Positions 43,999-64,000 of a stretch of DNA of 64,000 nucleotides are shown one piece after another (position 1 is the first letter of the stretch; each line of letters begins with the position of its first letter). The position numbers and the translations under genes are program-made. Source of the DNA: Polytrichum commune (lineage: Eukaryota > Streptophyta > Polytrichopsida > Polytrichales > Polytrichaceae); contig OX485806.1 in NCBI GenBank assembly GCA_950295325.1, positions 28,768,001-28,832,000 of the forward strand, given 5' to 3'. Under the pieces are notes generated by a model. That model was not told the DNA's origin. It saw nothing but the letters and a program-made list of their open reading frames with translations, and made no database searches.

Positions 43999-44580
43999 GT
44001 GATAATAACAAGTAACATGGATGAAAAAAGGCCGGATGAACAACAAATTCTATGGATGACAAATTCTACAGATGGAGTCGGAGTTGCATTGGCCATGGCA
44101 AAGATCCCATTCATATTGAAGAAATATGATCCAGAAGACATCTTCAATTTTGATGAGACAGGTTTGTATTATAGAGCCTCTCCTTATAAGACTTTGAATA
44201 TTGGGAAGGCGAAAGGAAATAAGAAAAAGAAGGACCGTGTGACATTGGGGCTTTGCACTAATATCTCAGGGAAGGAGCAATTGAAGCTTGTTTTCATTCA
44301 CAAAGCAGCGCGTCCCAGATGTTTTCCTCAGAATTTTGATCCAAATAGGACAGTACACTATTATTCTAACAATTCAGCCTGGATGAATGGTGATGTTTTT
44401 ACACATTGGGTGAAGAGTGAGAACCGAAGAATGGCATTGAAAGACAAACAAATTTGCATTATTATAGATAATGCAGGAAGCCATGATATTCATGGTGAGG
44501 TCAAGAAAGTTATAGATGGGTTTAATGCTTTTGTACTCTCCCATATCACTATATTGTTCCTTCCACCAAATGTGACTTAA
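43999..44580 (+). pseudogene. Pogo/Tigger-type (DDE_1) transposase fragment
   Basis: An open frame of 193 codons; the first ATG is at 44017. It encodes the central catalytic part of a pogo/Tigger-like transposase: FNFDETGLYY with the first Asp, KKKKDRVTLGLCTN, RPRCF, AWMNGDVFTHWV, then IIIDNAGSHD with the second Asp, and FLPPNVT. In this family (PF03184) the latter leads directly into the third Asp region. Here the frame meets TAA and 5 bp later the LTR of the Tat-like element begins, so the third catalytic residue and the C-terminus are lost. The N-terminal CENP-B-like DNA-binding domain is also absent. The stop just before the LTR suggests a small mutation in addition to the insertion. It is not functional. 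Confidence 0.78.
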
Positions 44581-45436
44581 GTTGTTGTACACCATCCCAG
44601 CCTCCAAGCAGCCAGGTAGGAGAGACGAGCACCGAGAAGAGCAGATAACGAGGGCCGCGAGGGAAGAGCACTGAGAAGAGCAGAGGACGAGGGCCGCGAG
44701 GGAAGAGCACCGAGGAGCAGGCGGCCATCAGAGCAGCAAGGCATCAGCAGCGAAGGAGGAGCCGGGTATCGGAGGAGAAGGAGAATGGCAGCGAAGGGAG
44801 CGGGTATCATGGACAGCTCGAGCGAGGAAAGGGGGACAGATGGCAGCCCAGGGTCGAAGACCGGTGAATGGCCGAGGACCGGCTTACCCGGTTATATAGG
44901 GAGCATGGGAGCGCACCAAGGCGGCCCGGGAACGCGGGGAGCGCACGGGAACGCACCGAGACGGCTCGGGAACGAAGGGAGCGCACCGGGAACGCACCGA
45001 GAGCCGGGAGGAGTGAACGACACCGGGAACGTCGTCATCAAGCCGGGAACGGACAAGCAACTAAGTAGGGTAGGATAGTTAGTTGCTAGTGAACACCTAA
45101 GCAAGGGTAGATGAAGGACATACCTAAAAGGGATGAAAGTCCTTTTTAGATGAACATAAACTATTCCCTTTAAATGAATAGTTGCATTCCGGATGAAGGA
45201 GATCCATGGATGGTAACCGTACCGAGAGGCACATCTAGGTTAAGCCAAGAAATCCAACGAATGAACTTCACAAGTACATTTTACATTCGGACATTATAAC
45301 TGCTGTAAATAGATCCGGGCAGCCTAAAATTAGACTGTAACCGGATACAGGGATAAAATTAGCCTGAAATAAACATGTGGCATTAGGGGAAGTTAGGACT
45401 AACCGCCACATCTAATTAAAGATAGATTTTGAACAC

Positions 45437-45444
45437 TATATAAG
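45437..45444 (+). promoter_or_regulatory. LTR TATA box
   Basis: TATATAAG in the 5' LTR, repeated in the 3' LTR at 63415-63422. Transcription would start near 45465-45475, which makes about 880 bp of U3 and a long R/U5. Confidence 0.55.
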
Positions 45445-45537
45445 AGGCCAAACTTAAGGCACCTAATACACTTCATTTGAACACGCAAACTCTACATGAG
45501 TGTCGGAGCCTCTAGCACTCTCTCAAGCTAGTACATT

Positions 45538-45850
45538 TAGCCGAGGTTTTCGTGCCCTAACTCGGAGGGCAATCGAGCTAGCATCGCAATTAGCCGAGGC
45601 ATTCGAGCCCTAACTCGGAGGGCATTGGAATACTAATACGATTAGCCGAGGCATTCGAGCCCTAACTCGGAGGGCATTGGAATATTAATGCGAGTAGCCG
45701 AGGCATACTGAAGCCCTAACTCGGAGGGCATTGGAGACAATCATGCACGAAGATAACTAGCCGAGGCAAATGCATACCCTAACTCGGAGGGCATTCTAAA
45801 GTGTTAAAATATTTAGCCGAGGTTCTCAAATCCTAACTCGGAGGATATTA
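45538..45850 (+). repeat. Six tandem hairpin-forming repeats in R/U5
   Basis: Units of about 50-64 bp with TAGCCGAGGCATTCGAGCCC and TAACTCGGAGGGCATTGG, starting near 45538, 45592, 45643, 45695, 45759 and 45812. In each unit CCGAG pairs with CTCGG across a loop of about 17-20 bases. They lie downstream of the TATA box, so they would be in the RNA. Confidence 0.85.
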
Positions 45851-47007
45851 GCACATGTTACTACACTAAGGCAAATTGGTCAAAGCTTCGGATTAAGTTT
45901 GCTCCGGTAACTAAGACCTTTGACGAAGGAGAATTTCGAGCCGAAGGGCCCGAAGGGAAATAATTACAGAGAGGAGGAAATCTCATTCGGCGGTACACTC
46001 GAGTTAATCCCCGACCTCAAGCCGGCCAAGTAAGATAAATTATTACAGTAAAAGCCCAAGTCACTCATATTTGAGGAAGGTAAGTTGTGGGCTTACCGGC
46101 TTACCATCACGTCATACCAGGTATGACTAGATACTAAATTATTACGCGGTGCCAAATCCAATTCAAAGGGAATTAGCCTAAGGGGATTTCAAAGCATCTA
46201 AGGGGAACACTTGGGGAAATTTAGGCCATGAGTTTAATACCTCATAAATGAGGGTGATAGTAATCAAACATCTTTAAGTGGAAATCGGTTTACCATATAC
46301 ATTAGAATCAACAAGGATTCTAATCCCTCAAATATTCTCAAGTGAATTTGGAATGTTGAAGGACCAAGGATACCATCAGAACAATATAATCAAGGTTAAA
46401 GAGGCAAGATGATTCTCAAGATTTTCATAATGTTAAAGAATATGTTTTGAACTAGAAACTCTTTATGAAGACATTCTCGGAATATTCTTGGAAAGTAATG
46501 AAGATTAGATGCATTCGAACCATGAAAGATATTGTTTGCAACATTTAGAGTTTCCCTTGAAACACTTAACCTCGACATTAGGATTTCGGGGAACATAATC
46601 TTGAAAACCTAAGGCACTTTCTCCTTGAAGATTTATAAAAAGGGATCTTCAAATACAACATTCCGGAATTGAAGAAATAAGATTATCTTGCGAGATCTTT
46701 CAAACCAGGAAAGATACAAGAGCGAATAGATGATTAAGAACTAAGGAAAGTAGTTTCTTAGAGAGCACTTTAATATTAGATTTCGGGGAACATAAACTTG
46801 TAACCTCAGGTCAACGATTCCAAGAGGATTTCAAAAGCGATAAATTAAAGATCACAAGAATTAGTCAACAAAGAGTTAACGGACACCTTCACAAGTTTTG
46901 AAAACTAAGAGAATCTAATTTTGGTGGGAGTAACTTCCATGTAAACCGGTCAGCAGCGGGTTACACCGTCTAAGTTTGCTGAGGGTTTGAAGGTGACCTC
47001 GACATTT

Positions 47008-47025
47008 TGGCGACCATGCTGGGGA
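47008..47025 (+). other. Primer binding site
   Basis: TGGCGACCATGCTGGGGA, starting with the TGG that pairs with a tRNA CCA end, three bases after the LTR. It resembles the TGGCGAC..GCTGGGGA primer sites of Ogre/Tat elements (tRNA-Arg type, from memory of the family). The tRNA was not matched here. Confidence 0.7.
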
Positions 47026-47113: not shown

Positions 47114-47752
47114 ATGGAGAACATGTACTACCTATATTGTGGAAGACTCCAACAGGAGATGAATGAGAAATGCAAATGGGAAGAAACATTTGGACCACGG
47201 AAGCAAGATCGTATAGAGAGAGCAGTGCAACGGAGACTCGAACAGTTTAATCTCCGAGGATTCTACGTGCAGGGAAGCGAAGGAGGAGAAGAAGAGAACT
47301 CAAAGCAACAAGAAGTCTTGGCTTTGGGTAAGTGGCCATGGGATTATCCAAAGTATGATACCAGTCGAACAACCTTGAAGAAATGGGAAGGAACCAGGAG
47401 ATTCCACGATCTCATGTGGGATATGCAGAAGATGTATGAAGACAAGGTCTGGCAATTACACCAAGAAAGAGAAATAGGATTCACGTACCGGTCACAATTT
47501 GAGAGAAACATTGCTGAGTTACCAGAGGAGCTGCAGGCAGTAATTTTCTCTAAGATATGGAATGACGGAAGAGAAGGAATTAGCGCCTATGTGTTAGGAG
47601 CAACGCGACATCGAGGTTACCATTACAAACAAGAAGGTTTGTTGTACGATTTGTATGTTAGAAAGATATTCTTACCTCTGTATGGTGGTTTGCATGGTAG
47701 TGTGGGGAACTTGAATTTGGGGCAGGAGCAGGAGCAAGAAACAAGAACTTAA
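47114..47752 (+). CDS. Extra ORF upstream of gag (ORF1), 212 residues
   Basis: A hydrophilic protein, rich in Glu, Arg and aromatic residues, beginning about 90 bp after the primer site. It is in a different frame from gag. I do not recognise a domain. Visible are a charged N-terminal half (EETFGPRKQDRIERAVQRR), Trp-containing helices (LKKWEGTRRFHDLMWDMQKM) and a C-terminal Gln/Glu run. Ogre-type elements are known to carry an ORF before gag-pro, and position is the only argument for relating them. There is no signal peptide or membrane segment. As the first ORF of the genomic RNA it could be translated directly; how gag would then be reached is not clear. Confidence 0.65.
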   Translation: MENMYYLYCGRLQQEMNEKCKWEETFGPRKQDRIERAVQRRLEQFNLRGFYVQGSEGGEEENSKQQEVLALGKWPWDYPKYDTSRTTLKKWEGTRRFHDLMWDMQKMYEDKVWQLHQEREIGFTYRSQFERNIAELPEELQAVIFSKIWNDGREGISAYVLGATRHRGYHYKQEGLLYDLYVRKIFLPLYGGLHGSVGNLNLGQEQEQETRT

Positions 47753-47867: not shown

Positions 47868-48317
47868 ATGGTTGATCATGAGGATACATCTAGTACGAGA
47901 AGTACATCACCAACTCCTAGAGAACAGGAGGCAGAGAAGAAGCATGTGGAGCGCATGCATTCCAGAGAGGACCGCATAAGGCGGATTGAACAACTCAAGA
48001 GAGAAAGAGAAGAGAGGTACGCTAGGCATACAAGACAAAGAACTACAGGAAGTGAAGAGAGCCGATACGCCTCTGAACCACCGGCAGTAGGTTCCCACAC
48101 CCCTAAGCCCAACCACCATAGAAGTCAAAGTGAAGGAGGAGGTAATGGTGAGACAAGCAAAGGACATGAAGACTTGGATGAAGAGAACTTGAATCAGGGA
48201 GAAAACGAGGAAGATGAGGACGATCTGATAATAGGTACCCCTCTTGGAACCTATGTGTTGAGAACAAAAGGTACAGGTAAAAACACGGGTACACATACCC
48301 CAGTAGATAAAGCGTAG
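47868..48317 (+). CDS. N-terminal extension of gag, ended by an in-frame TAG
   Basis: 149 codons, very charged: Arg/Glu-rich helix (DRIRRIEQLKREREERYARH), then an acidic stretch (EENEEDEDD-like). It is in the same frame as the gag-pol ORF at 48630. After the TAG at 48315-48317 the frame stays open through 48318-48629, with plausible protein (EEFDDLRRKFEEKLKQF), into the ORF that begins at 48630. So this is probably the true N-terminus of gag, separated by one stop codon. The frame is open back to 47808; ATG 47868 is the first Met. Confidence 0.6.
   Translation: MVDHEDTSSTRSTSPTPREQEAEKKHVERMHSREDRIRRIEQLKREREERYARHTRQRTTGSEESRYASEPPAVGSHTPKPNHHRSQSEGGGNGETSKGHEDLDEENLNQGENEEDEDDLIIGTPLGTYVLRTKGTGKNTGTHTPVDKA
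48315..48317 (+). other. In-frame TAG within gag
   Basis: Sequence GCG TAG GAC. It is either a point mutation or a leaky stop. With identical LTRs there has been little time for decay in place, although the element could have been copied with the defect. Confidence 0.6.
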
Positions 48318-48629: not shown

Positions 48630-51600
48630 ATGGCCGCACAACCCCGAAGAACGAAGGTTCCCTTACCAACCTACAAGGGTAAGACGGATCCCGATACGTA
48701 TATGCAAGAATTTAACAACGTGTGTCTCGCAAATCAAGAAGACACGGATGCGATCAAATTACAACTATTCCCTGTTACCTTAAAGAAACGAGCCTTGGAA
48801 TGGTATTCGCAATTTGGCCCAAACCATTTCCCAGATTGGCCAACATTAGGAACCGCCTTTCTTATGAGATTCAGATCAAAGAAATCGGAAGGGGAAGTCA
48901 TTGAAAGCCTAGGCTCCCTCAAACAGAAGAAAGACGAGACCGTCGAAGAGTTTTATGAAAGGGTTATGGTGGAATCATCAAAGATTCACCCTCAACCTAG
49001 TAATCAATTCAAGAAAGCATGGTTCCTTAATGGGTTGAAAAAGGAATACGCTAAGCACATTGATTTAATGCTGACCGATGACTTGGATGAAGCGAAAGCA
49101 TCGGCACGGAAGTTGGAATTGGGGCAGATGAGGAAAGGAAGATTCCTCGAGGAGAGTGATAGTGAAGAGTCAAGTGATGACTCGGAGGAAGAACGGCGAA
49201 AGAAGAAAAAAAAAACAAAGAGCAAGAAGACCAACTCAACTAAAGATGATATCAAGACTCTCCGAGAAGAGATAGAAGGATTGGCTTTGGGAAGCCGAAA
49301 ATTCAGAACGGGCATAATTTGCCGGCGATGCCGAAATGAAGGGCACTATGTGCAAGAGTGTCAGATGAAACAATGTACGAATTGTAACAGCTTAACCCAC
49401 AACACTAGCGAGTGTGTTTACGAACGGCATGAATCTCGGAGACCCCGAGATAGAAGATATGGGGTAAATCAAATACAACCCCAAACCAATCGAAGGCCAG
49501 GAGCGATCACTCCTAGGCGAGAAACGAATGACAGAAGGGTTCGGTTTGAACCAAGGATAGAATTCAGAAGAGATGAGAGATCCCCCTTTAGGGAAGGCGA
49601 TTACCGGCGGGAGGCGGGAGGCCCCTACCGGGGAAATGAATATCGCAAAGAAGAACGGCCCTACTATCGGCCCAACGACAACTACAGAGATGATTTTAGG
49701 AGGGAAGGTTATTACCCCTACAAAAGCCAAGATTACCGGAGGGAAGATGGATACCCCTACCGAGGAGGCCCTAGAGGACCTATTAACCATGACAGGTATG
49801 AGTATACCAGAAGCCTGATGGACAATAACAACACCAAGGCAGCGCCGAGAACTGGGATCACTGGCGGACCACAGCGAGATGGCAACCCCGACGAGTGTTT
49901 CTATTGTCATCAGAAGGGGCACCGGAAGCCGGATTGTCCGCACTATATTAAACATCAACATGAGTTGAATGGATTTAGAAACACAAAGCCGGCCGTGGGA
50001 GCCAACGCGGTGTCCCCCGCGGTTTGTGTAATGACGAGAGCCCAGCGGGCTGCAGCCGAGGAAGGCAAGGAAGATAGCGAAAGTGACGACAGTGATGATG
50101 ACGATGATTCGAGCAGTGGCAGCTCTGAGGAGCAGGAAGACCACCAACAAAGATATGAGAACTCTGATGAAGAGAGAGATGTTGTGCGTGAGCCGGACGC
50201 ACACCCCGATGAAGACAAAGAGGTGTTCAAGCAAGATGAACACGTTGATGATAAGGAAAAAGAAAGGCCGATAGGAGCCAACAGCGATGAATGGGAAGCT
50301 GATAGGAGAGTCCACCGGGAGGTGAGTAAAACTATCACGGAAATACAGGAGGAAGAGGGCGAAGCTCTACCCACGCCAGAAGAGTTCGCACCTTGGTACC
50401 CAGAAGAAGGAGAGGCAGGGAAGCCTAAAGAACGGAGCCCCGAGAAAGGAGGCGTCCCAAAGACTACCCAGGCAAGGGTAGATGAGATCTTAGAGAATGT
50501 GATGAAGCACACAAAAGCAAATATTTCAATAGGGCAACTACTTGAGATAGCCCCCTATTGTAGGAAACGGGTAATGGCTGCCCTTACCAGCCAAGAAGGA
50601 ACGTCTGAGAAACCGACCTCTACATACCAAGTGACAGCAAAGGCATTCGATGAGGAAATGCCTATGATATCGGTAATCATGAAGAATAAGCGAATACCGA
50701 ATGCATTGATCGATGGTGGATCAGGAGTGAACATCATCACTGACACATTAAGAAGGAAATTGGGGCTCAAGAAGATAGAGCCTGCACCATTCACTATAAA
50801 AATGGCTGACCAAAGAAAGGTCATGCCCAAGGGAATCATCCGAGACGTACGACTGGATGTCGGCGGCATCGTGATTAGAACGACACTCACCGTCATAGAC
50901 ATGGTGAGTACCGAAGACAGTTACTCCCTTTTGCTAGGGAGGCCATGGTTAAAAGAGGCCCAAGCACAACATGATTGGCCCCTCAACAAATTGACCTTAA
51001 CGCAAGGAGGAAACAAGGTAGAAATAAGCACCCAAAGAACGCCGGCCCTATCACCGGCCAAAAGACCCCTAAATTGGGAAGACTACAACTGGGAAATGGG
51101 ATTGTCCGATGAAGAAGAAGCGATAGTCTATGAAGCCTTCCCAGAACTTCTACCCATGGGGAACTTTGATTTGAAAAGCTTGAGAAAGCTAAGAGATCCA
51201 AGCTGCAACACAGTGAAGATTGATACTCACCACGAACCAGGAAAACTTGGAGCAAAAAAAAAAGAAACCGAGAAACCTCGGTCAAGAAAAGCAACGAGGA
51301 AAGAACAAGAAGCTATGGAGGAGAAACCGGTATATCCCTCCCAGTTTTACAAGGCAAAAGAAGGAGAGATAGAGATTGATCGCACCCCTGCCTCAGAAGC
51401 CGTCAAAGGGAAGAAAATAGCAGGGTGGACAGTTGAAGATGAAGACTTGGTGAAGAATTTAAACTTAGGAACTCCGGAGGAGCCTAAGTTAGTCAAAATC
51501 GCAAAAGACTTGGGAGAATACGAAGCAAAGGTGAAAGAGCTACTCCTAAAATTCAAGGATGTGTTTGCTTTCACATATAAAGACATGAAAGGCATACCCC

Positions 51601-54600
51601 CTCATGTGTGCGAGCACAAGATTGAGCTGCAGCCGGAAGCCAAGCCGGTGCGACAAATGCGTTATAGGATGAATCCTAATTACGCAGCCAAGGTGAAGGA
51701 AGAAATCGACAAGTACTTGGAAGCAGGATTCATATATCCGGTGGATAAAACAGAATGGTTATCCCCGATCGTGATTGTACCCAAGAAGAATGGGAAACTA
51801 CGCGTGTGCGTAGACTACCGGAAATTAAACGCTGTCACCAAGGTAGATCCCTTCCCTTTACCTTTTACCGAATCCATCTTGGAAGCGGTTGCAGGACACG
51901 AAATGTACACGCTAATGGACGGGTACAGCGGCTACAACCAAATCATGATCGCCTTAGAAGATCAGCTGAAGACGTCTTTCATCACCGAATACGGAGCGTT
52001 CGCGTACAGGGTGATGCCCTTTGGATTAATGTGTGCACCCGCCACCTTCCAAAGGGGCATGATGAAGATATTTGCCGACTACTTAGACAAATTCATGAAG
52101 GTGTTTTTAGATGATTTTACAGTTTATGGAACCAAGGAAGACCACATTGAGCATTTGGAAAAATGTCTCATTAAGTGCCGCGAAAATGGAGTAAGCCTGA
52201 ACCCAGAGAAGTGTTTCTTCTGCGTCAATTCAGGGAGACTCTTAGGGCACGTGGTATGCAAGGAAGGATTGTTGGTGGATCCGAAGAAGGTGGAAGTCAT
52301 AAAGGGATTACCTCCACCAACCACCGTACGAGGAATTCGGAGTTTCCTGGGACAAGCTACATACCATCGAAAATTCATATGGTTGTACGCTGAGATAACT
52401 CGGCCTTTGTACTTACTACTCAAGAAAGGAGAGAAGTACATTTGGACAAAATCTTGTCAAGAGGCCTTCAAAGAAGTGAAGAAAATGTTAACGACTACAC
52501 CCATTTTGATAACTCCCAATTGGACCATGGAGTTCCACGTGCACTGCGATGCCTCGAACATCGCGATTGGAGCCGTTTTGGCTCAGAACATACACGGAGA
52601 TAGAGATTCTCCAATTCATTACGCAAGTCGACTCTTAAACAATGCGGAGAAGAACTACAGTACGACGGAGCGTGAAGCCCTAGCGATGATCTACTCGGTA
52701 GGCAAATTCAGGCATTATCTACTAGCGAACCATTTCGGTTTCTACGTGGACCATCAAGCCCTGATATACTTGGTCAATCGACCAGTGGTGTCCGGGCGCA
52801 TTGCGAGATGGATGCTACTACTTCAAGAGTACGATTTTGAAGTAGTGTATAAGCCTGGTAGGAGCCATGTAATGGCGGACCACCTATCAAGGATAGAAAG
52901 CGGAGAAGACCCTTCAGGGGTACAAGACCAATTTCCGGACGCAAGTTTATTCATGGTTCACGTGCAACCATTCGAAGACTGGCGAGCACCTTTTATTGAG
53001 TACCTTACCCACGGAAGATTGTTGTCAGCTTTAGCTACCCCACGAGAGCAGAACAAGATCAGACAACTGAGTGAACCGTTCGTTTTGGACAACGAAAAAC
53101 TCAAGCGGGTCAGTATCTCCGGCAAAATACATGAGTGTGTTGCCGGTGACATCATCGAGGAAATTATAAGTGAAGCCCACGAACACGAGGGTACTCATTC
53201 CAATCTTAATACCACATGGCACTACGTTTTGTGCACCCCATACTGGTGGCCTACTCGTAGGAAGGATGTTTTGGCATATTGCCAAGAATGCCCAGTATGT
53301 AAAATTGCAAACACAGGAGAGATGCACGACACATTTACCCCACCCGACACCGAAGACCACGATGAATTACTACCAACTGAGTCTTTGGAAGCAGGGGAAA
53401 ATTTGACAGGAGGAACAGAACCCGATTGGACAACCCCGTATGTCCAATACCTAACCCATGGAACCAAATGGGAAAGTGACCTACCTGAGGTAGAGAAGCA
53501 ATTGATAGCTCATCGCAGTCAATTCTTTATACTAAAGGAAGGGGAATTACATCGTATTTTCCACAACAACGTCATCAAAAGATGCATGCCCGGGAAATAC
53601 GTGAGAAGTTATATAAAGGCTTTTCACATCCGAGAGAATCGGCATTACTCAGTTGATGCCACCCTGCAACTAATCTTACGAGAGCCATATTGGTGGCCCA
53701 CCATAGCAGAAGATCTCTCGTTGTTCATTACATTGTGTACAGGATGTCGTGGAAAAGGGGAAGAGTTGGCCGCAGAAGGAGGCCCCCACGAACCTAGTAC
53801 CGCAGAAAGTACGATACCTCATAATGAGACCTTCCACGACTGGAGGACACCTTTAATCGAATATCTGACTGATGGTGAGATCAAAGTAGGGACACTTACG
53901 CAAAGAGAACATGTAGAGGTTGTACGAAGGAGCAAGTTTTTCACAATGAAAGAAGGAAAACTTAAAAGATTGGAAAAGAACGGAAAGACCAGGGAGTGCA
54001 TTGCAGGAGATCAAATAAGACAATGGGTAATGGAAATGCACATGTACCAACAAACACACTTGAACGCCGATCAAACCTGGTTTCGGGTTTCGAAAGGAAA
54101 TCGGTGGTGGCCTACTATGGGAATTTGTGAAATACAAAATTTTATCAAGTATGATTGCCCAACATGTAAGGAGCAATTTCAAAATAAGCCCCGAAACATA
54201 ATGTGCGGGTCCATCGCCATACAACCACCTGACAACAAGGATTGGAGGAGGTTGTTAATAGAATACCTCACATACGGGTACCTGAAAGGACCCCACATCT
54301 CGAAGAATCAATACAAAAGGATAACTCGACAAAGCCAGAAATATTTCATTGAAGAAGGAAAACTAAAGAGGATATTCTCGGATGGAGACGTGAAAATATG
54401 TATTGCGGGACGTGAAATCAACAAATACCTGCAAGAATTACATGTTACGGAATCCGGGGAACATCTTAGCGAAGAAATAATGTGGCACCTAATCATGTTT
54501 GGGCCATACTGGTGGCCCACATGCGGAGCTGACATTAACAGCTTATGCCGTCGAAAATGTACGGTATGCAACAACCAAGCAGAATTTTCAAAGGACCAGC

Positions 54601-55994
54601 AAGCACCATCACCTCTGGACCGGAAAAACCTACTAAGAGGGATTGCTGCAGATTGGAGACGTCCTTACATGGAGTACCTAACATGCAAGGAAACCTTCGA
54701 CCAAACCTTACCACCAGAAGTAAAAAGGGCGGTAACACAAAGCCATAAATACTTTGTGTTCACCAATGGCACGTTACAACGGATACGCAAAGGAGGAAAG
54801 AGTAACCAAATATGTATACCTGAGGCTCAAGTTCCCAGGTACCTAGCCGAGACACATGGGGAAAGCGGACCCCACTTAGCCGCCATAGAAACGTGGAAGG
54901 CTGTGGCCACAGGAGCGTACTGGTGGCCAACATGGGGAAACGACGTGTGCAATCATTTAAGATACTACAAAACTTGCAGAGGAACGGAGACACCGGAGAA
55001 ATGCCCCAGGGAAAATCAAAACTCATCTTCACCAAAACCAACACCTAACCCAGATTGGAGACAACCGATTACCCAACGATTGAAGATTTTTGAGGAGTTG
55101 AACCACATTGGCACACATGAAGAGTTGGGACTACTCAGCCCCGATGCCGATACTTATTTCATAACCGAGGATGGTTTGAAATATCGGTTACCTAATGAGG
55201 AAGTAAAAATGTGCGTGACAAGAGAGGAAGCGTTGGATTGGATAAAACGGATACATGAATACCAAATGCCACATTTGACGAGAAAAGAGGTACTCACACA
55301 AATACACAAAGGCCCATATTGGTGGCCAACCATTTCTTCAGATATAAACCACTTAATTGACGAATGTAAACCATGTCAGATCACTGCAACGTCAGGCCTT
55401 AAAATCGAGAACTACGGGACTATCTTCCTCCAGAATCAGAAGACACATGATTGGAGAGAACCAATCATTCAATACCTCAAAGACCCAATGGAACTAAGCG
55501 ACTTCGCCTTTCATGAAGAGTTGGGTACCTTACGGACGGAATTACCTCATTACTTTCTAAAGAAAGGAAAGTTAAAGCGAAGTTTTGCAAATGGGCAAAC
55601 GAGACTGTGCATCTCTCAAGAAAGAGGAATCGAATGGTTGACAGCCATTCACAATCAACGGTACCCTCATCTTTCAATGGATGAAATGATTTTACAAGTC
55701 ACCCAAGGGCCTTATTGGTGGCCCACAATTCCTCCGGACATTGACCATCTATGCAAGAAGTGTAGAGTTTGTTGGCCCAATGAAACCCCGGAGCATGTTG
55801 TTGACTGCAAAACTGTCACGATCAAGGACCAAGAAGAACCGGACTGGAGAACACCTTTCATCGATTACTTAACCCACGGGAGGCTGACCACGGAAGCCTC
55901 AACCACGCAGCGACAACAAATCGCCATACGAAGTCGTCCATACATGCTAAACCACAACGGGACTCTGATAAAAGAAGGGCCCGATGGTATATGA
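48630..55994 (+). CDS. Gag-pol polyprotein: gag, protease, RT, RNase H, HHCC modules 1-8 (part)
   Basis: 2454 codons. Residues 10-170: retrotransposon gag domain (LEWYSQFGP, FLNGLKKEYAKHI). Three CCHC zinc knuckles start near 231 (CRRCRNEGHYVQEC), 249 (CTNCNSLTHNTSEC) and 423 (CFYCHQKGHRKPDC), separated by a region rich in Arg and Tyr. An acidic stretch lies near 470-560. Aspartic protease: DGGSGVNI at 695. RT: VCVDYRKLNAVTKVDPFPLP and active site FLDD at 1159-1162. RNase H: CDAS, Asp at 1307, with EREALAMIYSV and ADHLSRI. From 1450 to the stop, seven complete HHCC modules and the start of the eighth. Gag and pol are in one frame without a shift. The frame ends at TGA 55992-55994 inside module 8, and the continuation in the same frame is the integrase. 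Cleavage by its own protease is expected. Confidence 0.93.
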   Translation: MAAQPRRTKVPLPTYKGKTDPDTYMQEFNNVCLANQEDTDAIKLQLFPVTLKKRALEWYSQFGPNHFPDWPTLGTAFLMRFRSKKSEGEVIESLGSLKQKKDETVEEFYERVMVESSKIHPQPSNQFKKAWFLNGLKKEYAKHIDLMLTDDLDEAKASARKLELGQMRKGRFLEESDSEESSDDSEEERRKKKKKTKSKKTNSTKDDIKTLREEIEGLALGSRKFRTGIICRRCRNEGHYVQECQMKQCTNCNSLTHNTSECVYERHESRRPRDRRYGVNQIQPQTNRRPGAITPRRETNDRRVRFEPRIEFRRDERSPFREGDYRREAGGPYRGNEYRKEERPYYRPNDNYRDDFRREGYYPYKSQDYRREDGYPYRGGPRGPINHDRYEYTRSLMDNNNTKAAPRTGITGGPQRDGNPDECFYCHQKGHRKPDCPHYIKHQHELNGFRNTKPAVGANAVSPAVCVMTRAQRAAAEEGKEDSESDDSDDDDDSSSGSSEEQEDHQQRYENSDEERDVVREPDAHPDEDKEVFKQDEHVDDKEKERPIGANSDEWEADRRVHREVSKTITEIQEEEGEALPTPEEFAPWYPEEGEAGKPKERSPEKGGVPKTTQARVDEILENVMKHTKANISIGQLLEIAPYCRKRVMAALTSQEGTSEKPTSTYQVTAKAFDEEMPMISVIMKNKRIPNALIDGGSGVNIITDTLRRKLGLKKIEPAPFTIKMADQRKVMPKGIIRDVRLDVGGIVIRTTLTVIDMVSTEDSYSLLLGRPWLKEAQAQHDWPLNKLTLTQGGNKVEISTQRTPALSPAKRPLNWEDYNWEMGLSDEEEAIVYEAFPELLPMGNFDLKSLRKLRDPSCNTVKIDTHHEPGKLGAKKKETEKPRSRKATRKEQEAMEEKPVYPSQFYKAKEGEIEIDRTPASEAVKGKKIAGWTVEDEDLVKNLNLGTPEEPKLVKIAKDLGEYEAKVKELLLKFKDVFAFTYKDMKGIPPHVCEHKIELQPEAKPVRQMRYRMNPNYAAKVKEEIDKYLEAGFIYPVDKTEWLSPIVIVPKKNGKLRVCVDYRKLNAVTKVDPFPLPFTESILEAVAGHEMYTLMDGYSGYNQIMIALEDQLKTSFITEYGAFAYRVMPFGLMCAPATFQRGMMKIFADYLDKFMKVFLDDFTVYGTKEDHIEHLEKCLIKCRENGVSLNPEKCFFCVNSGRLLGHVVCKEGLLVDPKKVEVIKGLPPPTTVRGIRSFLGQATYHRKFIWLYAEITRPLYLLLKKGEKYIWTKSCQEAFKEVKKMLTTTPILITPNWTMEFHVHCDASNIAIGAVLAQNIHGDRDSPIHYASRLLNNAEKNYSTTEREALAMIYSVGKFRHYLLANHFGFYVDHQALIYLVNRPVVSGRIARWMLLLQEYDFEVVYKPGRSHVMADHLSRIESGEDPSGVQDQFPDASLFMVHVQPFEDWRAPFIEYLTHGRLLSALATPREQNKIRQLSEPFVLDNEKLKRVSISGKIHECVAGDIIEEIISEAHEHEGTHSNLNTTWHYVLCTPYWWPTRRKDVLAYCQECPVCKIANTGEMHDTFTPPDTEDHDELLPTESLEAGENLTGGTEPDWTTPYVQYLTHGTKWESDLPEVEKQLIAHRSQFFILKEGELHRIFHNNVIKRCMPGKYVRSYIKAFHIRENRHYSVDATLQLILREPYWWPTIAEDLSLFITLCTGCRGKGEELAAEGGPHEPSTAESTIPHNETFHDWRTPLIEYLTDGEIKVGTLTQREHVEVVRRSKFFTMKEGKLKRLEKNGKTRECIAGDQIRQWVMEMHMYQQTHLNADQTWFRVSKGNRWWPTMGICEIQNFIKYDCPTCKEQFQNKPRNIMCGSIAIQPPDNKDWRRLLIEYLTYGYLKGPHISKNQYKRITRQSQKYFIEEGKLKRIFSDGDVKICIAGREINKYLQELHVTESGEHLSEEIMWHLIMFGPYWWPTCGADINSLCRRKCTVCNNQAEFSKDQQAPSPLDRKNLLRGIAADWRRPYMEYLTCKETFDQTLPPEVKRAVTQSHKYFVFTNGTLQRIRKGGKSNQICIPEAQVPRYLAETHGESGPHLAAIETWKAVATGAYWWPTWGNDVCNHLRYYKTCRGTETPEKCPRENQNSSSPKPTPNPDWRQPITQRLKIFEELNHIGTHEELGLLSPDADTYFITEDGLKYRLPNEEVKMCVTREEALDWIKRIHEYQMPHLTRKEVLTQIHKGPYWWPTISSDINHLIDECKPCQITATSGLKIENYGTIFLQNQKTHDWREPIIQYLKDPMELSDFAFHEELGTLRTELPHYFLKKGKLKRSFANGQTRLCISQERGIEWLTAIHNQRYPHLSMDEMILQVTQGPYWWPTIPPDIDHLCKKCRVCWPNETPEHVVDCKTVTIKDQEEPDWRTPFIDYLTHGRLTTEASTTQRQQIAIRSRPYMLNHNGTLIKEGPDGI
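52977..53303 (+). other. HHCC module 1 (residues 1450-1558)
   Basis: DWRAPFIEYLTHG linker, then AHEHEGTH (H-x5-H), PYWWPT and CPVC. All four zinc ligands are present. It follows RNase H directly, the normal place of the single module in Tat-type elements. Confidence 0.88.
53424..53753 (+). other. HHCC module 2 (residues 1599-1708)
   Basis: DWTTPYVQYLTHG, FHIRENRH (H-x5-H), PYWWPT, CTGC. All ligands present. An acidic linker of about 40 residues separates it from module 1. Confidence 0.88.
53838..54173 (+). other. HHCC module 3 (residues 1737-1848)
   Basis: DWRTPLIEYLTDG, MHMYQQTH (H-x5-H), RWWPT, CPTC. All ligands present; Tyr of YWWPT is Arg. Confidence 0.88.
54240..54572 (+). other. HHCC module 4 (residues 1871-1981)
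   Basis: DWRRLLIEYLTYG, LHVTESGEH (H-x6-H), PYWWPT, CTVC. All ligands present. Confidence 0.88.
54651..54983 (+). other. HHCC module 5 (residues 2008-2118), one Cys lost
   Basis: DWRRPYMEYLTC, THGESGPH (H-x5-H), AYWWPT, but YKTC where the others have CxxC. It is the only module with a missing zinc ligand. Confidence 0.85.
55053..55382 (+). other. HHCC module 6 (residues 2142-2251)
   Basis: DWRQPITQRL, IHEYQMPH (H-x5-H), PYWWPT, CKPC. All ligands present; the YLT part of the linker has changed. Confidence 0.88.
55449..55778 (+). other. HHCC module 7 (residues 2274-2383)
   Basis: DWREPIIQYLKD, IHNQRYPH (H-x5-H), PYWWPT, CRVC. All ligands present. Confidence 0.88.
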
Positions 55995-56171
55995 AGGATA
56001 TGCGTAGTTGGACCGATAACTACAGCCATCATTGCGGAAGCTCATGAGGGGATAGCTGGAGGACACTTCTCAGCCAATATCACCTTACACAAGGTTTTAA
56101 CTGCCTTGCATTGGTGGCCCACCATGAAAAGAGATGTCCATTTATATTGCACTCAATGCGATATCTGCCAA
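55842..56171 (+). other. HHCC module 8, adjacent to the integrase core, split by TGA
   Basis: DWRTPFIDYLTHG before the stop. After the stop, in the same frame, AHEGIAGGH (H-x6-H), HWWPT and CDIC. All four ligands are present on the far side of the stop. This is the module that would belong to the integrase proper. Confidence 0.87.
55992..55994 (+). other. In-frame TGA between module 8 linker and zinc ligands
   Basis: Context ATA TGA AGG. The other modules show that a single residue is expected at about this point, so the stop replaces one codon with no length change. CGA to TGA by cytosine deamination is one simple origin; a regulated stop is another. No known readthrough signal was recognised. 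Confidence 0.65.
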
Positions 56172-57854
56172 AGGGTTGGCCCAAAAATCTCAACCAACCT
56201 CCAACCCTTACATCCCGCAATGCCCACGGAGGTATTTCAGAAATGGGGTCTGGATTTCATTGGACCGGTCAACCCGCCAGCCAAAGGCACCAAAAATCGG
56301 TACATAATCACAGCTACGGACTACACCACCAAGTGGGTGGAAGCCCGGGCTTTAAAAGATAACACGGCTAAATCTACAGCCAAGTTCCTTTTCGAAGAGA
56401 TAATTACAAAATTTGGATGCCCATTGGAATTTGTGAGCGACCAAGGCAGCCATTTTATCAACGACACTATTAAGGTGCTCACCCAAGAATTTATGATTTT
56501 ACACCGGAAGTCAACCACGTACTACCCGCAAGCCAACGGCCAAGCAGAAAGTACCAACAAGGTAATAAAGATTGCCTTAACCAAAATGGTGAACGCCAAT
56601 CGAACTGATTGGGACACCAAGTTACACGCAGCACTTTGGGCCTATAGGACAGCCTATAAGGTCACGACGAAGCACACTCCATTTTCATTAGTATTCGGGA
56701 CGGAAGCATTGTTACCTATGGCGTACCTTCATCCCGATGTTTATCAAAAGCGGAGTCAAGAAATTCATCCCATCCTAGAAAAGAGGATGGAACAACTCAA
56801 GGTGGTGGATCTCACTCGACATGAAGCTGAGGAGAACATGAAACACATGCAGATACTACGGAAGGAGAGACATGACAAGCCAAAGGTGAAGACACCATGT
56901 AAGCAGTGTGGTCACGGGATAACCAAGCTTCCACAGAAAGAGACCAAGGAACATGATACCACGCAAACGAGAGGGGCAATTCAAACCTCTTCCAAAATCA
57001 AAGAGGCGGAGCCAACCCCTACAACCAAGACCCGATTTTATCCCGGACAGCGAATTTTGTGGCATCTACGCCATAAGATACCCGGACCGGGTAAATTCAA
57101 GATCCGATGGGCAGGACCTTATCTAATTCAACAAGTCTATGATAATGGATCAGTGGATGTTACCACCCTACAAGGGGACAGTTTGGGACGAGTCAACATG
57201 AACAAACTAAAACCTTACCAAGAGCCCGAAACAACTCAGGCTTATGCCTTACAAATTCTAGCATGCCACCTTTTAGAAACGGAAATACGAGCAAAACGAA
57301 ATCCTTTATACAAAGGGACGAGTACTACATCAATTCCCATCACCCCATCTTCTCAATCAAATACGGAAATCATTTCACATACTGGTTCCACCTCTTACCA
57401 AAGTCAAGAAACCTTAGATGCTGAAGATTTGGAAATACATAGGGTCATGCTAGAAGTATACCACATACATCCCTCAAAACAAGAGAATGTTCATCCAAAA
57501 GATACCTTAAACCCCATAAGGCACGACCAAAGGAAGGAGAAAGAAACCAACCTACATACCATACAATTCCAACAAGAGAAAGATACCTTAAACCTCCTAA
57601 GGTATGACCAAAGGGATGGAAAAGAAACCAACCTACATACCATACAATCACAACAAGAGAAAGAGGCCTTAAACTTCTTAAGGCGCGACCAAAGGGATGG
57701 AAAAGAAACCAATCTACATACCATATCCCAATGGGAACCACTATCCAGTTCAAGAGAAGATTCGGGAAGCGCAACACCTATGAGGAATACAACCCATGCT
57801 TACCCCGCCTTACCTGGCTTGGAGCCAACTGGGGTGGAGCCAACTCCCATATGA
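55995..57854 (+). CDS. Integrase: rest of module 8, DDE core, GPY/F-like region, repeated tail
   Basis: Same frame as gag-pol; first Met at 56106. It inserts the DNA copy into the host genome. The core has LDFIGP (Asp at 56253), VSDQGSHF (Asp at 56439) and GQAESTNK (Glu at 56547); 35 residues lie between the second Asp and the Glu, the retroviral D,D35E spacing. Downstream are TPFSLVFGTEALLP, a Lys/Cys-rich insert (PCKQCGHG), and GKFKIRWAGPYLI, a GPY/F-type C-terminal module. There is no chromodomain. The tail holds three 27-residue repeats. If the TGA is never read through, this part has no start of its own that would include the zinc ligands of module 8. Confidence 0.9.
   Translation, partial: RICVVGPITTAIIAEAHEGIAGGHFSANITLHKVLTALHWWPTMKRDVHLYCTQCDICQRVGPKISTNLQPLHPAMPTEVFQKWGLDFIGPVNPPAKGTKNRYIITATDYTTKWVEARALKDNTAKSTAKFLFEEIITKFGCPLEFVSDQGSHFINDTIKVLTQEFMILHRKSTTYYPQANGQAESTNKVIKIALTKMVNANRTDWDTKLHAALWAYRTAYKVTTKHTPFSLVFGTEALLPMAYLHPDVYQKRSQEIHPILEKRMEQLKVVDLTRHEAEENMKHMQILRKERHDKPKVKTPCKQCGHGITKLPQKETKEHDTTQTRGAIQTSSKIKEAEPTPTTKTRFYPGQRILWHLRHKIPGPGKFKIRWAGPYLIQQVYDNGSVDVTTLQGDSLGRVNMNKLKPYQEPETTQAYALQILACHLLETEIRAKRNPLYKGTSTTSIPITPSSQSNTEIISHTGSTSYQSQETLDAEDLEIHRVMLEVYHIHPSKQENVHPKDTLNPIRHDQRKEKETNLHTIQFQQEKDTLNLLRYDQRDGKETNLHTIQSQQEKEALNFLRRDQRDGKETNLHTISQWEPLSSSREDSGSATPMRNTTHAYPALPGLEPTGVEPTPI
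57501..57727 (+). repeat. Three 81-bp coding repeats in the integrase tail
   Basis: Starts at 57501, 57582 and 57663; exact 81-bp period keeps the frame. Each encodes DQR..KETNLHTI followed by QQEK in the first two. Very similar copies indicate a recent expansion. Confidence 0.88.
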
Positions 57855-59879: not shown

Positions 59880-62522
59880 ATGGAGAGCCTATATGAACTT
59901 GTGCCACAGCTGAATGAGCAGGAGACATTTTGGAAACAATTGCGAGTCACGTGTCTGAAAGGCTTCACCTCAGTGCGGTGGAGCACAAAGGAGCTGCAGT
60001 GGCATCCCCTTTTATGCAAGTTCCACACTTACCAGAACTTGTGGTGCCAAGCAGTGATCAACCTCAAGGAGTCAGATTTTGAGATGAAGAGACGACAAGG
60101 AGAAGAAGAACCTGGGAGGTACATTTTCGTGGTTGATGCAGTTCTTAGGAACCATCAGTTTACCATGGAAGAGGTTAACTTCCTGAAGCAAATCAACCTG
60201 GAGGGCTTTGTGACCAGAACCACTTGGGGAGTATTGCATGAGGATTTAGTTCGGGAGGCATTAACAAACCTCAAAGAGGACACTCTGGTTACCACGGTGC
60301 GAGGCAAGACCTTTCCAATCATCGCACCAGAATGGAGAGCGCAGATGAGGAACCTCTTCGAGCTCACCAATCGCAAGATCACATCAACCAAGCAGTGGGA
60401 ATTATCGGAGCTTTTTCCTTCACTCAAAACACTGACCGAAGGACAAGAAACAGTGAAGGTAACAAATTGTTCATACCCCGGGGCCAAGAAACCTCTCAGA
60501 CTTTTGAATTCTTTATTTTGTCTTAACAATACTGGCCAAAATCACATTTCTGTACTTTTTGCGGAGCTTGTCCTGGCAGCCCTAAATGGCCAGGCAGTAG
60601 ATTGGCCGGGAGAATTCCATCAGGAATTCAGAGAAGAAGTTTTAAAACTTCACCACAAGCATTCTCAAACCATGACGAAAGTGACGAGGACCACAATAGG
60701 CCCCCACCTCACCCTTGTTATTAAGGCAGCAGGCGCTATGAACCTAAGGCACGAAATTGAAGCGGGATTTCACATTGCCAAACCTTTCACTACAGCTGCA
60801 GATAATGACCAACCCAAAAGGAGGAAGTACACTAAGGCCTCCATACCACCACCCACTCTCCATAGCACAGTAAGGGTGGTACCACCTGGTCCGGATCGTC
60901 AAAAGGGCCCTTCCGCATCCGCACACCCATCAACCTCGGAGACACCTCGCTCTGTGATCATCGAGACTGAAGAACCATGGCAGGTTCCAGACGCTATCCC
61001 CAACATCGTCGAACAGGTAAAGCAGGTGCACAGGAGGATGGAGAACCTACTTACCACCCTCGCAAACAAAGCGCCACCCAAGTTACTGAGAGAATTGGAC
61101 TCTCAGTTTTACAAAATCCAGCGGGAGGCAGTCCTGCATGAGGACACGAAACTCCCAGGTAGCAGCCCAGAGAGGTTGCAATCAGAAATTCTTAGAACTC
61201 ACCACGTGCAAATAGAACAACTGGAGAAGAAGCTTCTCGATGCAGAGGAACTCAACAACTTGTGCATCGAAGACTCTTTCGGAGTACAAAATCAACTTTC
61301 AGAGATGCAAGAAGAGACTGAAAAGTTGAAGAAAGAGATTCAGACTCTCAACCACGAAAACCGAACTCAATTAACCACAATTCAGGACCTAGAAAACGCC
61401 AATTCACAGCAGTTCAGAACCCATGAGACAGAAATGGCAGCAATGCGTGCACAAATTCACAATCTTACCGAGACATCGGAAGCCCGCAGCCTGCATGCCA
61501 GTAAAACCGCCGAAGCACTCCGGAACCAACAACAACAGGAGAGGTCAGAGCTTACCCAGCTGCGTGCCGAAAACAGGGATCTGAAGGCGGAGTTGGCCGC
61601 CAAGAAACCAAGTTCCCCATCCAAGAGAGACTACGATTTCCGCCAGCACCCACACAGGCCCATAGATCGTACTGAGAGGCAGGCATTGGCCGAGGGAGCA
61701 GCGGAGCAAATACTTAGTGATCTGCAGCAAGAGCTACAAGCAATCAAGCAGGAAAAGGAGGAGTTGCAACACCAACTCCAGCAAGGGAACCCAGTAGGGC
61801 CAGTGGGACTACCCCAATCCTACAGTTACCCTAAATCTGAAATTTTTCAGAGGTTGCTTACCCACACCGAACCCCTCAGATCCATAATGCAAAGCTATCA
61901 TGCACACGGGGCGATCAATCTGCTTACAAGCAACTTACCCATTCTGAAACGAGGTACCTCCCTCAGCCAGGAACAATTCGGGGAACTATGGGCGCAAGCT
62001 AATTCCAGGGCTAAAGACACTTTGATGTTTATGTGGGCACTAGGCGATGTTAAATTGCCACTGGGGAGCGCGGAGGTGGTCACAGGATCCCCTCCCTTCT
62101 TTATCAGAAGATACATACTCCGCAGCATAGCCTTTTTGGGCCAGCATCAAGCTCACCAAGTAAAAGCACACAACATCAACCTTGCATTACCCTCATTGCG
62201 CCCTTACACACACAGCCAGAAGATTGCGATCGCCAAACTACAACAACAACATAAAGCAACTTTCCAACAAGCCATCAACGCGTTGAAAGGTGAAGACACG
62301 GCAGTCTGTTTCGAGGCGACGAGGCGACACCAATGGATATTGGAACATTTTCCCCACCACTCGACACACGTGACCATATTTCAGCTCAAGGAATATGTTA
62401 ATCAAACCCTGGAAGAGCAACAGATCACGATCACCACAGGGCGATTTGGCACCATCAACCAGGGCACGATACTTCGAATCGGATTACCAGATCATCCAGG
62501 GCACAACCAGCAAGCACTATAG
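59880..62522 (+). CDS. Large coiled-coil protein encoded 3' of pol, 880 residues
   Basis: A single intact ORF that ends about 25 bp before the polypurine tract. The N-terminal part (1-300) is a folded-looking region with aromatic and Leu residues (TTWGVLHEDLVREAL, VRGKTFPIIAPEW). A basic, nuclear-localisation-like PKRRKYTK lies near 312, then a Pro/Ser-rich linker. About 435-635 is a long Gln/Glu-rich coiled coil (LEKKLLDAEELNNL, LQQELQAIKQEKEELQHQL). About 650-850 is a second helical region. There is no signal peptide, transmembrane helix or zinc motif, so an envelope-like role is not supported. Its N-terminal layout recalls the 'putative plant transposon protein' type of 3' ORF, a weak impression only. 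Function unknown; an oligomeric structural or nucleic-acid-associated role is a guess from the coiled coil. Confidence 0.8.
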   Translation: MESLYELVPQLNEQETFWKQLRVTCLKGFTSVRWSTKELQWHPLLCKFHTYQNLWCQAVINLKESDFEMKRRQGEEEPGRYIFVVDAVLRNHQFTMEEVNFLKQINLEGFVTRTTWGVLHEDLVREALTNLKEDTLVTTVRGKTFPIIAPEWRAQMRNLFELTNRKITSTKQWELSELFPSLKTLTEGQETVKVTNCSYPGAKKPLRLLNSLFCLNNTGQNHISVLFAELVLAALNGQAVDWPGEFHQEFREEVLKLHHKHSQTMTKVTRTTIGPHLTLVIKAAGAMNLRHEIEAGFHIAKPFTTAADNDQPKRRKYTKASIPPPTLHSTVRVVPPGPDRQKGPSASAHPSTSETPRSVIIETEEPWQVPDAIPNIVEQVKQVHRRMENLLTTLANKAPPKLLRELDSQFYKIQREAVLHEDTKLPGSSPERLQSEILRTHHVQIEQLEKKLLDAEELNNLCIEDSFGVQNQLSEMQEETEKLKKEIQTLNHENRTQLTTIQDLENANSQQFRTHETEMAAMRAQIHNLTETSEARSLHASKTAEALRNQQQQERSELTQLRAENRDLKAELAAKKPSSPSKRDYDFRQHPHRPIDRTERQALAEGAAEQILSDLQQELQAIKQEKEELQHQLQQGNPVGPVGLPQSYSYPKSEIFQRLLTHTEPLRSIMQSYHAHGAINLLTSNLPILKRGTSLSQEQFGELWAQANSRAKDTLMFMWALGDVKLPLGSAEVVTGSPPFFIRRYILRSIAFLGQHQAHQVKAHNINLALPSLRPYTHSQKIAIAKLQQQHKATFQQAINALKGEDTAVCFEATRRHQWILEHFPHHSTHVTIFQLKEYVNQTLEEQQITITTGRFGTINQGTILRIGLPDHPGHNQQAL

Positions 62523-62547: not shown

Positions 62548-62563
62548 GAGAGGGGGGATAAAA
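62548..62563 (+). other. Polypurine tract
   Basis: GAGAGGGGGGATAAAA immediately before the 3' LTR, interrupted by a single T. Primer for plus-strand synthesis. Confidence 0.85.
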
Positions 62564-63444
62564 TGTACACCATCCCAGCCTCCAAGCAGCCAGGTAGGAG
62601 AGACGAGCACCGAGAAGAGCAGATAACGAGGGCCGCGAGGGAAGAGCACTGAGAAGAGCAGAGGACGAGGGCCGCGAGGGAAGAGCACCGAGGAGCAGGC
62701 GGCCATCAGAGCAGCAAGGCATCAGCAGCGAAGGAGGAGCCGGGTATCGGAGGAGAAGGAGAATGGCAGCGAAGGGAGCGGGTATCATGGACAGCTCGAG
62801 CGAGGAAAGGGGGACAGATGGCAGCCCAGGGTCGAAGACCGGTGAATGGCCGAGGACCGGCTTACCCGGTTATATAGGGAGCATGGGAGCGCACCAAGGC
62901 GGCCCGGGAACGCGGGGAGCGCACGGGAACGCACCGAGACGGCTCGGGAACGAAGGGAGCGCACCGGGAACGCACCGAGAGCCGGGAGGAGTGAACGACA
63001 CCGGGAACGTCGTCATCAAGCCGGGAACGGACAAGCAACTAAGTAGGGTAGGATAGTTAGTTGCTAGTGAACACCTAAGCAAGGGTAGATGAAGGACATA
63101 CCTAAAAGGGATGAAAGTCCTTTTTAGATGAACATAAACTATTCCCTTTAAATGAATAGTTGCATTCCGGATGAAGGAGATCCATGGATGGTAACCGTAC
63201 CGAGAGGCACATCTAGGTTAAGCCAAGAAATCCAACGAATGAACTTCACAAGTACATTTTACATTCGGACATTATAACTGCTGTAAATAGATCCGGGCAG
63301 CCTAAAATTAGACTGTAACCGGATACAGGGATAAAATTAGCCTGAAATAAACATGTGGCATTAGGGGAAGTTAGGACTAACCGCCACATCTAATTAAAGA
63401 TAGATTTTGAACACTATATAAGAGGCCAAACTTAAGGCACCTAA
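62564..63444 (+). repeat. 3' LTR, first 881 bp
   Basis: Matches 44586-45466 with no difference seen by eye, then breaks off at CACCTAA, just after the TATA box. The rest (about 1.54 kb) should lie beyond the inserted element, outside the window. Confidence 0.92.
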
Positions 63445-64000
63445 GAGCATCCGCACCCATGCTCGCTATACCCGGCCTCAATGGCTTTTGGCGGGCCCGG
63501 GTAGGAATGACCACCCCACCGCAACCCGGGCAACGGCTCTTTCAAGAGCGGGCTCGTGAAAAACTTCCCCTGTCGCGCCATTTTCCAGAGTCTTCGAGTT
63601 CTCTGCGCGCGCCCAAAAGCCGGGTGATTTAGGGAAGATTTTGTTCTAATTTTTTGTGTGCACCGCTGTTCGGAGAATTTTTGGCGGGATGGCAGGACGT
63701 GGCCGTGGGCACTCGGTGCTTCGAGGCCGTGGACGCGGTGGCTTGCAGCGAGGAGCGCCTGCGGCAACTGATTTCGGGGTTGGTGAGCGGGGATTCGACG
63801 ACGTCGAATTTGAGGGTTTGATGCGGGGGAGGCCGTCGCCGCGAGTGGGTGAAGCGAATGGTTTGCAATCTCGGCGAACTGGGCTCGATCGCAGCCAGCA
63901 TGCGGGGATTCACTTGCAGCATTCAACTGGTTTCGGCGAACACGAAGCACCGACGGCCTCGGTGCCGGATGTGACTACTGGAGCAGGCCATCAAGCCCAG
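63445..64000 (+). mobile_element. Left end of a PIF/Harbinger-like element in the 3' LTR
   Basis: LTR similarity stops after TAA (63442-63444) and is followed by GAGCATCCGCACCCATGCTC. This has the GAGCATCC start seen in the Tourist element at 32691 and common to plant PIF/Harbinger ends, with TAA as the 3-bp target. The following DNA is GC-rich, unlike its surroundings. The right end is outside the window, so the element class is inferred from one end only. Confidence 0.6.
63689..64000 (+). CDS. Arg/Gly-rich ORF, N-terminal part, runs off the window
   Basis: At least 104 codons from ATG 63689, open to the last base. It starts MAGRGRGHSVLRGRGRGG, an RGG/GRG-type basic N-terminus often linked to RNA or DNA binding, followed by a mixed charged region. 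It lies about 245 bp inside the Harbinger-like end. PIF/Harbinger elements carry a second, Myb-like DNA-binding ORF beside the transposase; this could be the start of either, or a captured host gene fragment. High GC sets it apart from the window. Confidence 0.5.
   Translation, partial: MAGRGRGHSVLRGRGRGGLQRGAPAATDFGVGERGFDDVEFEGLMRGRPSPRVGEANGLQSRRTGLDRSQHAGIHLQHSTGFGEHEAPTASVPDVTTGAGHQAQ

Follow-up and report, generated by a model that had tools for sequence, protein, structure and literature searches.

An array of integrase N-terminal domains, maintained by selection, in a Ty3/gypsy retrotransposon of Polytrichum commune

A stretch of 64,000 nucleotides of the Polytrichum commune genome (assembly GCA_950295325.1, contig OX485806.1, positions 28,768,001 to 28,832,000 of the forward strand; here called the window) contains a Ty3/gypsy retrotransposon that encodes eight successive integrase N-terminal domains (NTDs) between ribonuclease H (RNase H) and the integrase catalytic core. 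The integrase architecture of NTD, core, and C-terminal domain is treated as fixed, and the number of chains per intasome varies; to our knowledge, all known integrases have one NTD per chain. The P. commune genome holds forms of the element with 1, 5, 8, and 11 such modules. The extra modules are under selection, which suggests that the added length does a job so far undescribed.

Each module runs from a DW motif to a CxxC pair or its remnant. A sequence-only reading of this DNA had placed eight tandem modules between RNase H and the core, 393-447 bp apart from start to start, and both the placement and the spacing are borne out. Counted with their linkers on the forward strand, modules 1 to 7 occupy 52977..53423, 53424..53837, 53838..54239, 54240..54650, 54651..55052, 55053..55448, and 55449..55841, and module 8, the canonical NTD proximal to the core, occupies 55842..56198. 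Scored one by one against Pfam Integrase_H2C2 (PF17921), modules 1-7 reach 42.3, 28.1, 12.8, 24.0, 23.7, 28.5, and 22.1 bits, and the part of module 8 that follows an internal stop codon reaches 54.5 bits; modules 1, 2, 6, and 8 are over the cut-off of 25.5 bits, modules 4, 5, and 7 fall slightly short of it, and module 3 scores weakly. A second comparison with the same family matched five of the six modules 2-7 at E up to 0.01. To avoid circularity, 41 single NTDs from other elements served to train an independent profile; against it modules 1-7 score 39.7-62.1 bits and the part of module 8 past the stop 65.6 bits, and no shuffled module among 1400 scored above 9.6. The profile search had been set in advance, with significance of modules 1 and 8 alone as the outcome that would speak against an array, and more than these two proved significant.

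The sequence-only reading had also assigned the modules to one polyprotein. They do share a frame, which is open for 2454 codons (48630..55994) from gag through protease, reverse transcriptase (RT), and RNase H into the array, but an in-frame TGA within module 8 (55992..55994) means that the eight modules do not form one intact polyprotein in the window copy. The HHCC motif of module 8 and the integrase core continue in the same frame past the TGA (55995-57854). Programmed readthrough was considered and rejected: the position is a sense codon in all 21 other one-frame copies from this genome, and none of the five relatives in ENA contigs that cover the site has a stop there.

A profile of all eight modules matches foamy virus integrase residues 29-106 (E 9e-8), as does a profile of modules 2-7 only (E 8e-6); Ty3 integrase is a weak match to the eight-module profile (E 0.009) and does not appear in the match list of the other. 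Although the proposed tandem repeat stands, its description as an array of zinc fingers alone does not: the repeated unit is the whole N-terminal extension together with the HHCC domain (NED-NTD). The modules share with the PF17921 domain of foamy virus and Ty3 integrases the HHCC ligands, the WWP motif, and the preceding NED, whereas those integrases have one NTD per chain and the forms described here 5, 8, or 11.

Protein identity between modules is 20-42%. Between modules, agreement at codon positions 1, 2, and 3 is 46, 53, and 31%, and where residues are shared, four-fold sites match at 68 of 253 positions (27%, with 26% expected by chance). With synonymous sites saturated between modules, the duplications are old, as had been proposed. 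In the window copy, 31 of 32 HHCC ligands are present; seven modules have all four, module 6 among them, and module 5, as reported before, is short of one, its first Cys (the third ligand) being replaced by Tyr. All eight modules also share an invariant additional Cys ahead of the first His.

The array was used as a query against the genome (408 Mb in 64 contigs, the window lying on contig C4) and gave at least 48 matches; 30 were cut out as loci, seven are first blocks within eleven-module loci, two lie in locus L046, and nine were unread. Fifteen of the 30 loci, including the window copy, carry eight modules in one frame, and seven (L019, L020, L022, L023, L024, L025, and L028) carry eleven; the remaining eight are decayed, in two frames, or partial. 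The array is free of stops in 10 of these 22 one-frame copies and contains one or two in the other 12, and the longest open frame around an array match has 3716 codons. Four eleven-module copies were examined farther upstream, and in them the RT-RNase H segment is followed directly by the first module, which makes eleven their complete count. The stretch from the last module to the core showed no additional domain either. Among the fetched loci only L036 falls below eight modules, having seven and 18 stops; because the query was a full-length array, short ones are under-represented. Some matches of equal or near-equal score are neighbors 13-28 kb apart, two pairs in the same orientation and one in opposite orientation (pairs G000:C5:27129067/27146287; C3:53512066/53539560; C5:13221848/13235246).

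An RT-RNase H query gave 96 matches, with pieces of one copy counted separately: 39 at 88-100% identity, 20 at 70-75%, and 37 at 53-59%. Three of the 20 were read. Ahead of the core, L048 carries five modules in a single frame; L050 likewise carries five, with stops, and L049 shows three modules and a partial fourth, the 4.5 kb read there containing no core. Two of the 37 were read and have one module each. The same holds, within about 1.5 kb on either side, for the eight best Integrase_H2C2 loci, which were read from 150 scored among 2567 candidates.

Across modules 1-7 of the 22 one-frame copies, ligands are kept at 576 of 616 positions, and at 522 of 528 without module 6, which holds 34 of the 40 losses. 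Twenty-one of 28 ligand columns are invariant in these copies versus 350 of 927 other columns, and outside module 6 the count is 21 of 24. The third ligand of module 5, Tyr in the window copy, is a stop in L022 and Cys in the other 20. In the five-module sister family (L048 and L050), the third module seems to lack the second His and the CxxC and would be another zinc-less module that an array has retained.

The ratio of nonsynonymous to synonymous substitution rates (dN/dS) was estimated by the Nei-Gojobori method and pooled over pairs of one-frame copies, with stop codons skipped; the pairs are non-independent, saturation affects the distant ones, and post-insertion mutations raise the ratio. 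The 22 one-frame copies were used, leaving out L014, L018, L029, L035, L036, L037, L038, and L039 (two-frame, partial, or with neither 8 nor 11 modules). In the 12 copies that keep the module 6 zinc site, dN/dS is 0.09-0.18 across the seven module domains, modules 1-3 of this group being a mixture of two block types; in the 10 copies without that site it is 0.09-0.29, with module 6 highest. Linkers, as a rule the least conserved parts, give 0.15-1.07. The core with module 8 gives 0.033 and 0.056 after L017 and L033 were dropped (pairs with either had reached up to 0.45 among those listed), and RT-RNase H gives 0.043 and 0.044 (eight-module copies only, pairs with a proportion of nonsynonymous differences, pN, > 0.1 from frame-shifted flanks being dropped). 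Single pairs agree with the pooled module values (L010-L012 0.19, L019-L021 0.21, L020-L032 0.15). Every module is under purifying selection, and the array is maintained; a neutrally evolving array is ruled out by these ratios. The low module ratios and the near-complete retention of ligands outside module 6 uphold the earlier proposal that the ligands were kept by selection, and the fold has been kept along with them.

Beyond this genome, the array alone as a protein query found eight relatives. Seven are proteins from ENA contigs that have the array modules in the same order, are 57-78% identical over the covered part, and each span three to six modules, whole or partial; the eighth, from JGI, comprises RT-RNase H and the start of module 1. 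The ENA relatives are 56-75% identical to the window copy in modules 1-7, and the five that reach the integrase core are 90-99% identical there (33-205 residues compared). Ligands in their modules 1-7 are kept at 105 of 110 positions versus 1929 of 2766 (70%) for other positions (P0008 left out of this comparison), and module 6 of two relatives accounts for all five losses. Related elements therefore carry the array too, as the sequence-only reading would lead one to expect. A protein search with the polyprotein and the array region (3606 candidates) found nothing, and scans of viral contigs and prokaryote genomes found no relatives.

Relatives of the RT were more widely sampled: 120 listed of 6328 found were examined, and 59 of these, from any host, have both RT and core. 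Forty-six have one NTD, six have two, and in seven none was recognized. P0085 (Tanacetum), counted with two, is by eye a rearranged copy that repeats RNase H sequence and was set aside. The two-NTD elements P0033, P0038, P0053, P0101, and P0111 (and P0063, which is without a core) carry tandem NTDs where the array lies, between RNase H and the core; the fern Adiantum nelumboides is the source of P0063 and P0101. Bryophyte and fern Ty3/gypsy elements (Marchantia, Riccia, and Adiantum) are 48-58% identical to the window copy in RT-RNase H and have the same domain order.

A tree of 59 modules, which has few columns and many weak inner forks, joins the extra modules of the 5-, 8-, and 11-module forms in one clade (support 100/100) that stands apart from the core-proximal and single NTDs. 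In another module tree the extra modules are again one clade (100/99), and the core-proximal NTD adjoins it. In the 59-module tree, module 1 of one family pairs with module 1 of the other (98/89), and module 4 of the five-module form groups with modules 6 and 7 (99/97). By these groupings an array predates the family split, and a single ancestor appears to have given rise to modules 6 and 7. Modules 1-3 come in two block types: the window copy and L011 have the first only, the other 13 eight-module copies have the second only, and the eleven-module copies carry both. On the modules 4-7 tree, no fewer than four changes are needed to explain the 8/11 state, so gain or loss of three modules at a time is recurrent. 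An alignment of sliding three-module windows was uninformative, since overlapping pieces were aligned to themselves. The NTDs of the two-module elements form a pair clade of their own (100/96), which looks like the result of a separate duplication. An origin shared by two-module and many-module arrays seems disfavored by approximately unbiased (AU) tests (p 0.043 on the module tree and 0.062 on the RT tree), the tested groups having been named after a first tree was seen and the RT tree using database hits only.

The element begins at 44586 and extends past the end of the window, measuring about 20 kb without a later insertion. It has the domain order gag, protease, RT, RNase H, integrase and the two 2.4-kb long terminal repeats (LTRs) with target-site duplication (GTTGT) of a Ty3/gypsy LTR retrotransposon; it departs from the usual single integrase NTD, which is not strictly a defining trait, with eight here and 11 and 5 in relatives. 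All features listed for it in this paragraph lie on the forward strand. The left GTTGT is at 44581..44585 and the right copy past the window, in locus L009. The 5' LTR (44586..47004) matches both parts of the 3' LTR, of which the first part (62564..63444) is split at 63445 and the second resumes beyond the window. The first 881 bases of the LTR pair are identical, and the further 1490 aligned positions show one substitution, apart from 58 gap columns; the near identity and the GTTGT at both ends indicate a young, properly made insertion. Above the Pfam cut-offs, the 48630..55994 frame contains Retrotrans_gag, RVT_1 (RT core, 51777..52253, 1.7e-26), RT_RNaseH_2 and RT_RNaseH (52443..52832, 1.5e-33 and 9.8e-33), and Integrase_H2C2, with protease matches below cut-off only; the integrase core (rve, 56226..56528, 1e-10) was found in the downstream part of the frame. 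A possible primer-binding site (47008..47025), picked for its position beside the LTR end, is weak, with 4 mismatches in 13 to the pattern compared, and a polypurine tract read directly (62548..62563) precedes the 3' LTR. No chromodomain after the integrase was among the Pfam matches, which sets the element apart from chromoviruses. Ogre, Tat, and Athila elements have in common with it a large size, long LTRs, extra open reading frames (ORFs), and tandem repeats, according to passages of a survey of plant LTR elements (PMC6317226) that mention no NTD arrays; the second, archaeal-type RNase H of Tat and Ogre was not among the Pfam matches here.

Other parts of the element were noted in passing. 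Three different minisatellites (39, 40, and 52 bp) lie in the 5' LTR at 44620-44714, 44903-45002, and 45537-45735 and are possible binding or recombination sites. Two ORFs between LTR and gag (47114-47752, 212 codons, and 47868-48317, 149 codons) have no Pfam match. Near the end of the integrase frame an 81-bp in-frame repeat has three copies (57498-57740), and between pol and the 3' LTR a sense ORF of 880 codons (59880-62522) is coiled-coil-like by eye, with no Pfam match above cut-off. The insertion that splits the 3' LTR is 4.8 kb long (63445 onward; 1445-6236 in L009), bears inverted ends of 20 bp (GAGCATCCGC...), is flanked by TAA on either side, and looks like a PIF/Harbinger DNA transposon. 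The element itself lies inside an open frame (43999-44580; from 7727 in L009) that by eye resembles a DDE/CENP-B-like transposase gene and picks up again at the right-hand GTTGT. Upstream are about seven 253-bp tandem repeats (41763-43538) and, on the minus strand, a 422-codon ORF (1351-2619) that is plant receptor kinase-like by eye only, in keeping with a plant host.

We read the multiplied NED-NTD array, kept by selection, as a multivalent integrase tail, and give this a probability of about 0.45. The array would stay joined to the integrase as a flexible N-terminal tail in which each module keeps its fold, and together the modules would multiply the contacts of a single NED-NTD, whether with LTR DNA, with the catalytic domain of a partner chain, or with a host tethering factor. 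Repeating the unit within one chain would confer avidity for assembly or targeting, fold and spacing weighing more than the exact number of modules. Passages of two papers describe contacts of these kinds: the NED of Ty3 stabilizes the LTR interaction and is reported to bind TFIIIC (PMC8632968), and in lentiviral intasomes, with up to sixteen integrases, NTDs touch viral DNA, partner chains, and LEDGF/p75 (PMC9065133). A flexible module number, mixed module charges, and one lost zinc site speak against an exact register on DNA; a role for exactly eight modules (two chains providing sixteen NTDs) was dropped once 11- and 5-module forms appeared. Several points weigh against a multivalent tail. 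Constraint on the extra modules is about 2-5 times weaker than on the core, and 10 of the 22 one-frame copies, a whole subfamily, no longer have the zinc site of module 6 yet keep the module. The array may be cleaved off the polyprotein, and selection against polyprotein misfolding would also give low dN/dS.

The weaker constraint and the loss of the module 6 zinc site would also fit the main rival, in which unequal recombination adds passenger modules that are folded only to spare the polyprotein and the core-proximal NTD alone is functional. The variable length of the array, 8 or 11 with its repeated changes, speaks for it as well. We consider it unlikely: blocks are evidently gained and lost with ease, yet only L036 of the 30 loci, in a sample poor in short arrays, is below eight, and misfolding alone must explain the invariance of 21 of 24 ligand columns outside module 6. 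The modules might instead bind repeats in the LTR or the genomic RNA and serve in packaging, LTR synapsis, or target choice; the LTR contact of the Ty3 NED (PMC8632968) and the three minisatellites of the 5' LTR favor such binding. The modules are unlike a uniform nucleic-acid binder, however, their charges spanning -5.7 to +5.1, and variable positions are spread along the entire domain (20-37% differences in every block), and we hold this role to be rather unlikely. Release of the array from the polyprotein, to act as an independent structural protein of the particle, is quite improbable, even with a length of about 950-1400 residues and linkers whose dN/dS reaches 1.07, given that no boundary is recognizable between module 8 and the core and that NTDs are most simply read as parts of an integrase. 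An assembly artefact or chance repeat is scarcely credible: some near-identical neighboring copies could be assembly duplicates, which would leave the rest untouched, but 22 whole-array one-frame copies lie at separate genome sites, and ENA contigs show the same module order.

A full-text literature search, judged by titles and the beginnings of abstracts and with subscription papers and preprints mostly outside its scope, returned no description of an NTD array among the papers listed, and by term count neither 'zinc' nor 'HHCC' occurs in the main text of the plant LTR-element survey (PMC6317226). A bolder interpretation, which we regard as improbable, is that poly-NTD integrases represent a distinct design of intasome or tether, evolved at least twice in plant elements, in which one chain provides in cis the many NED-NTD contacts that other retroelements obtain from additional integrase subunits, up to sixteen in lentiviruses. 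With the NTD multiplied inside one chain, the 1, 5, 8, and 11 modules of a single genome are a natural series for probing NED-NTD contacts, and the array is a clear case of a retroelement enzyme growing modularly under selection.
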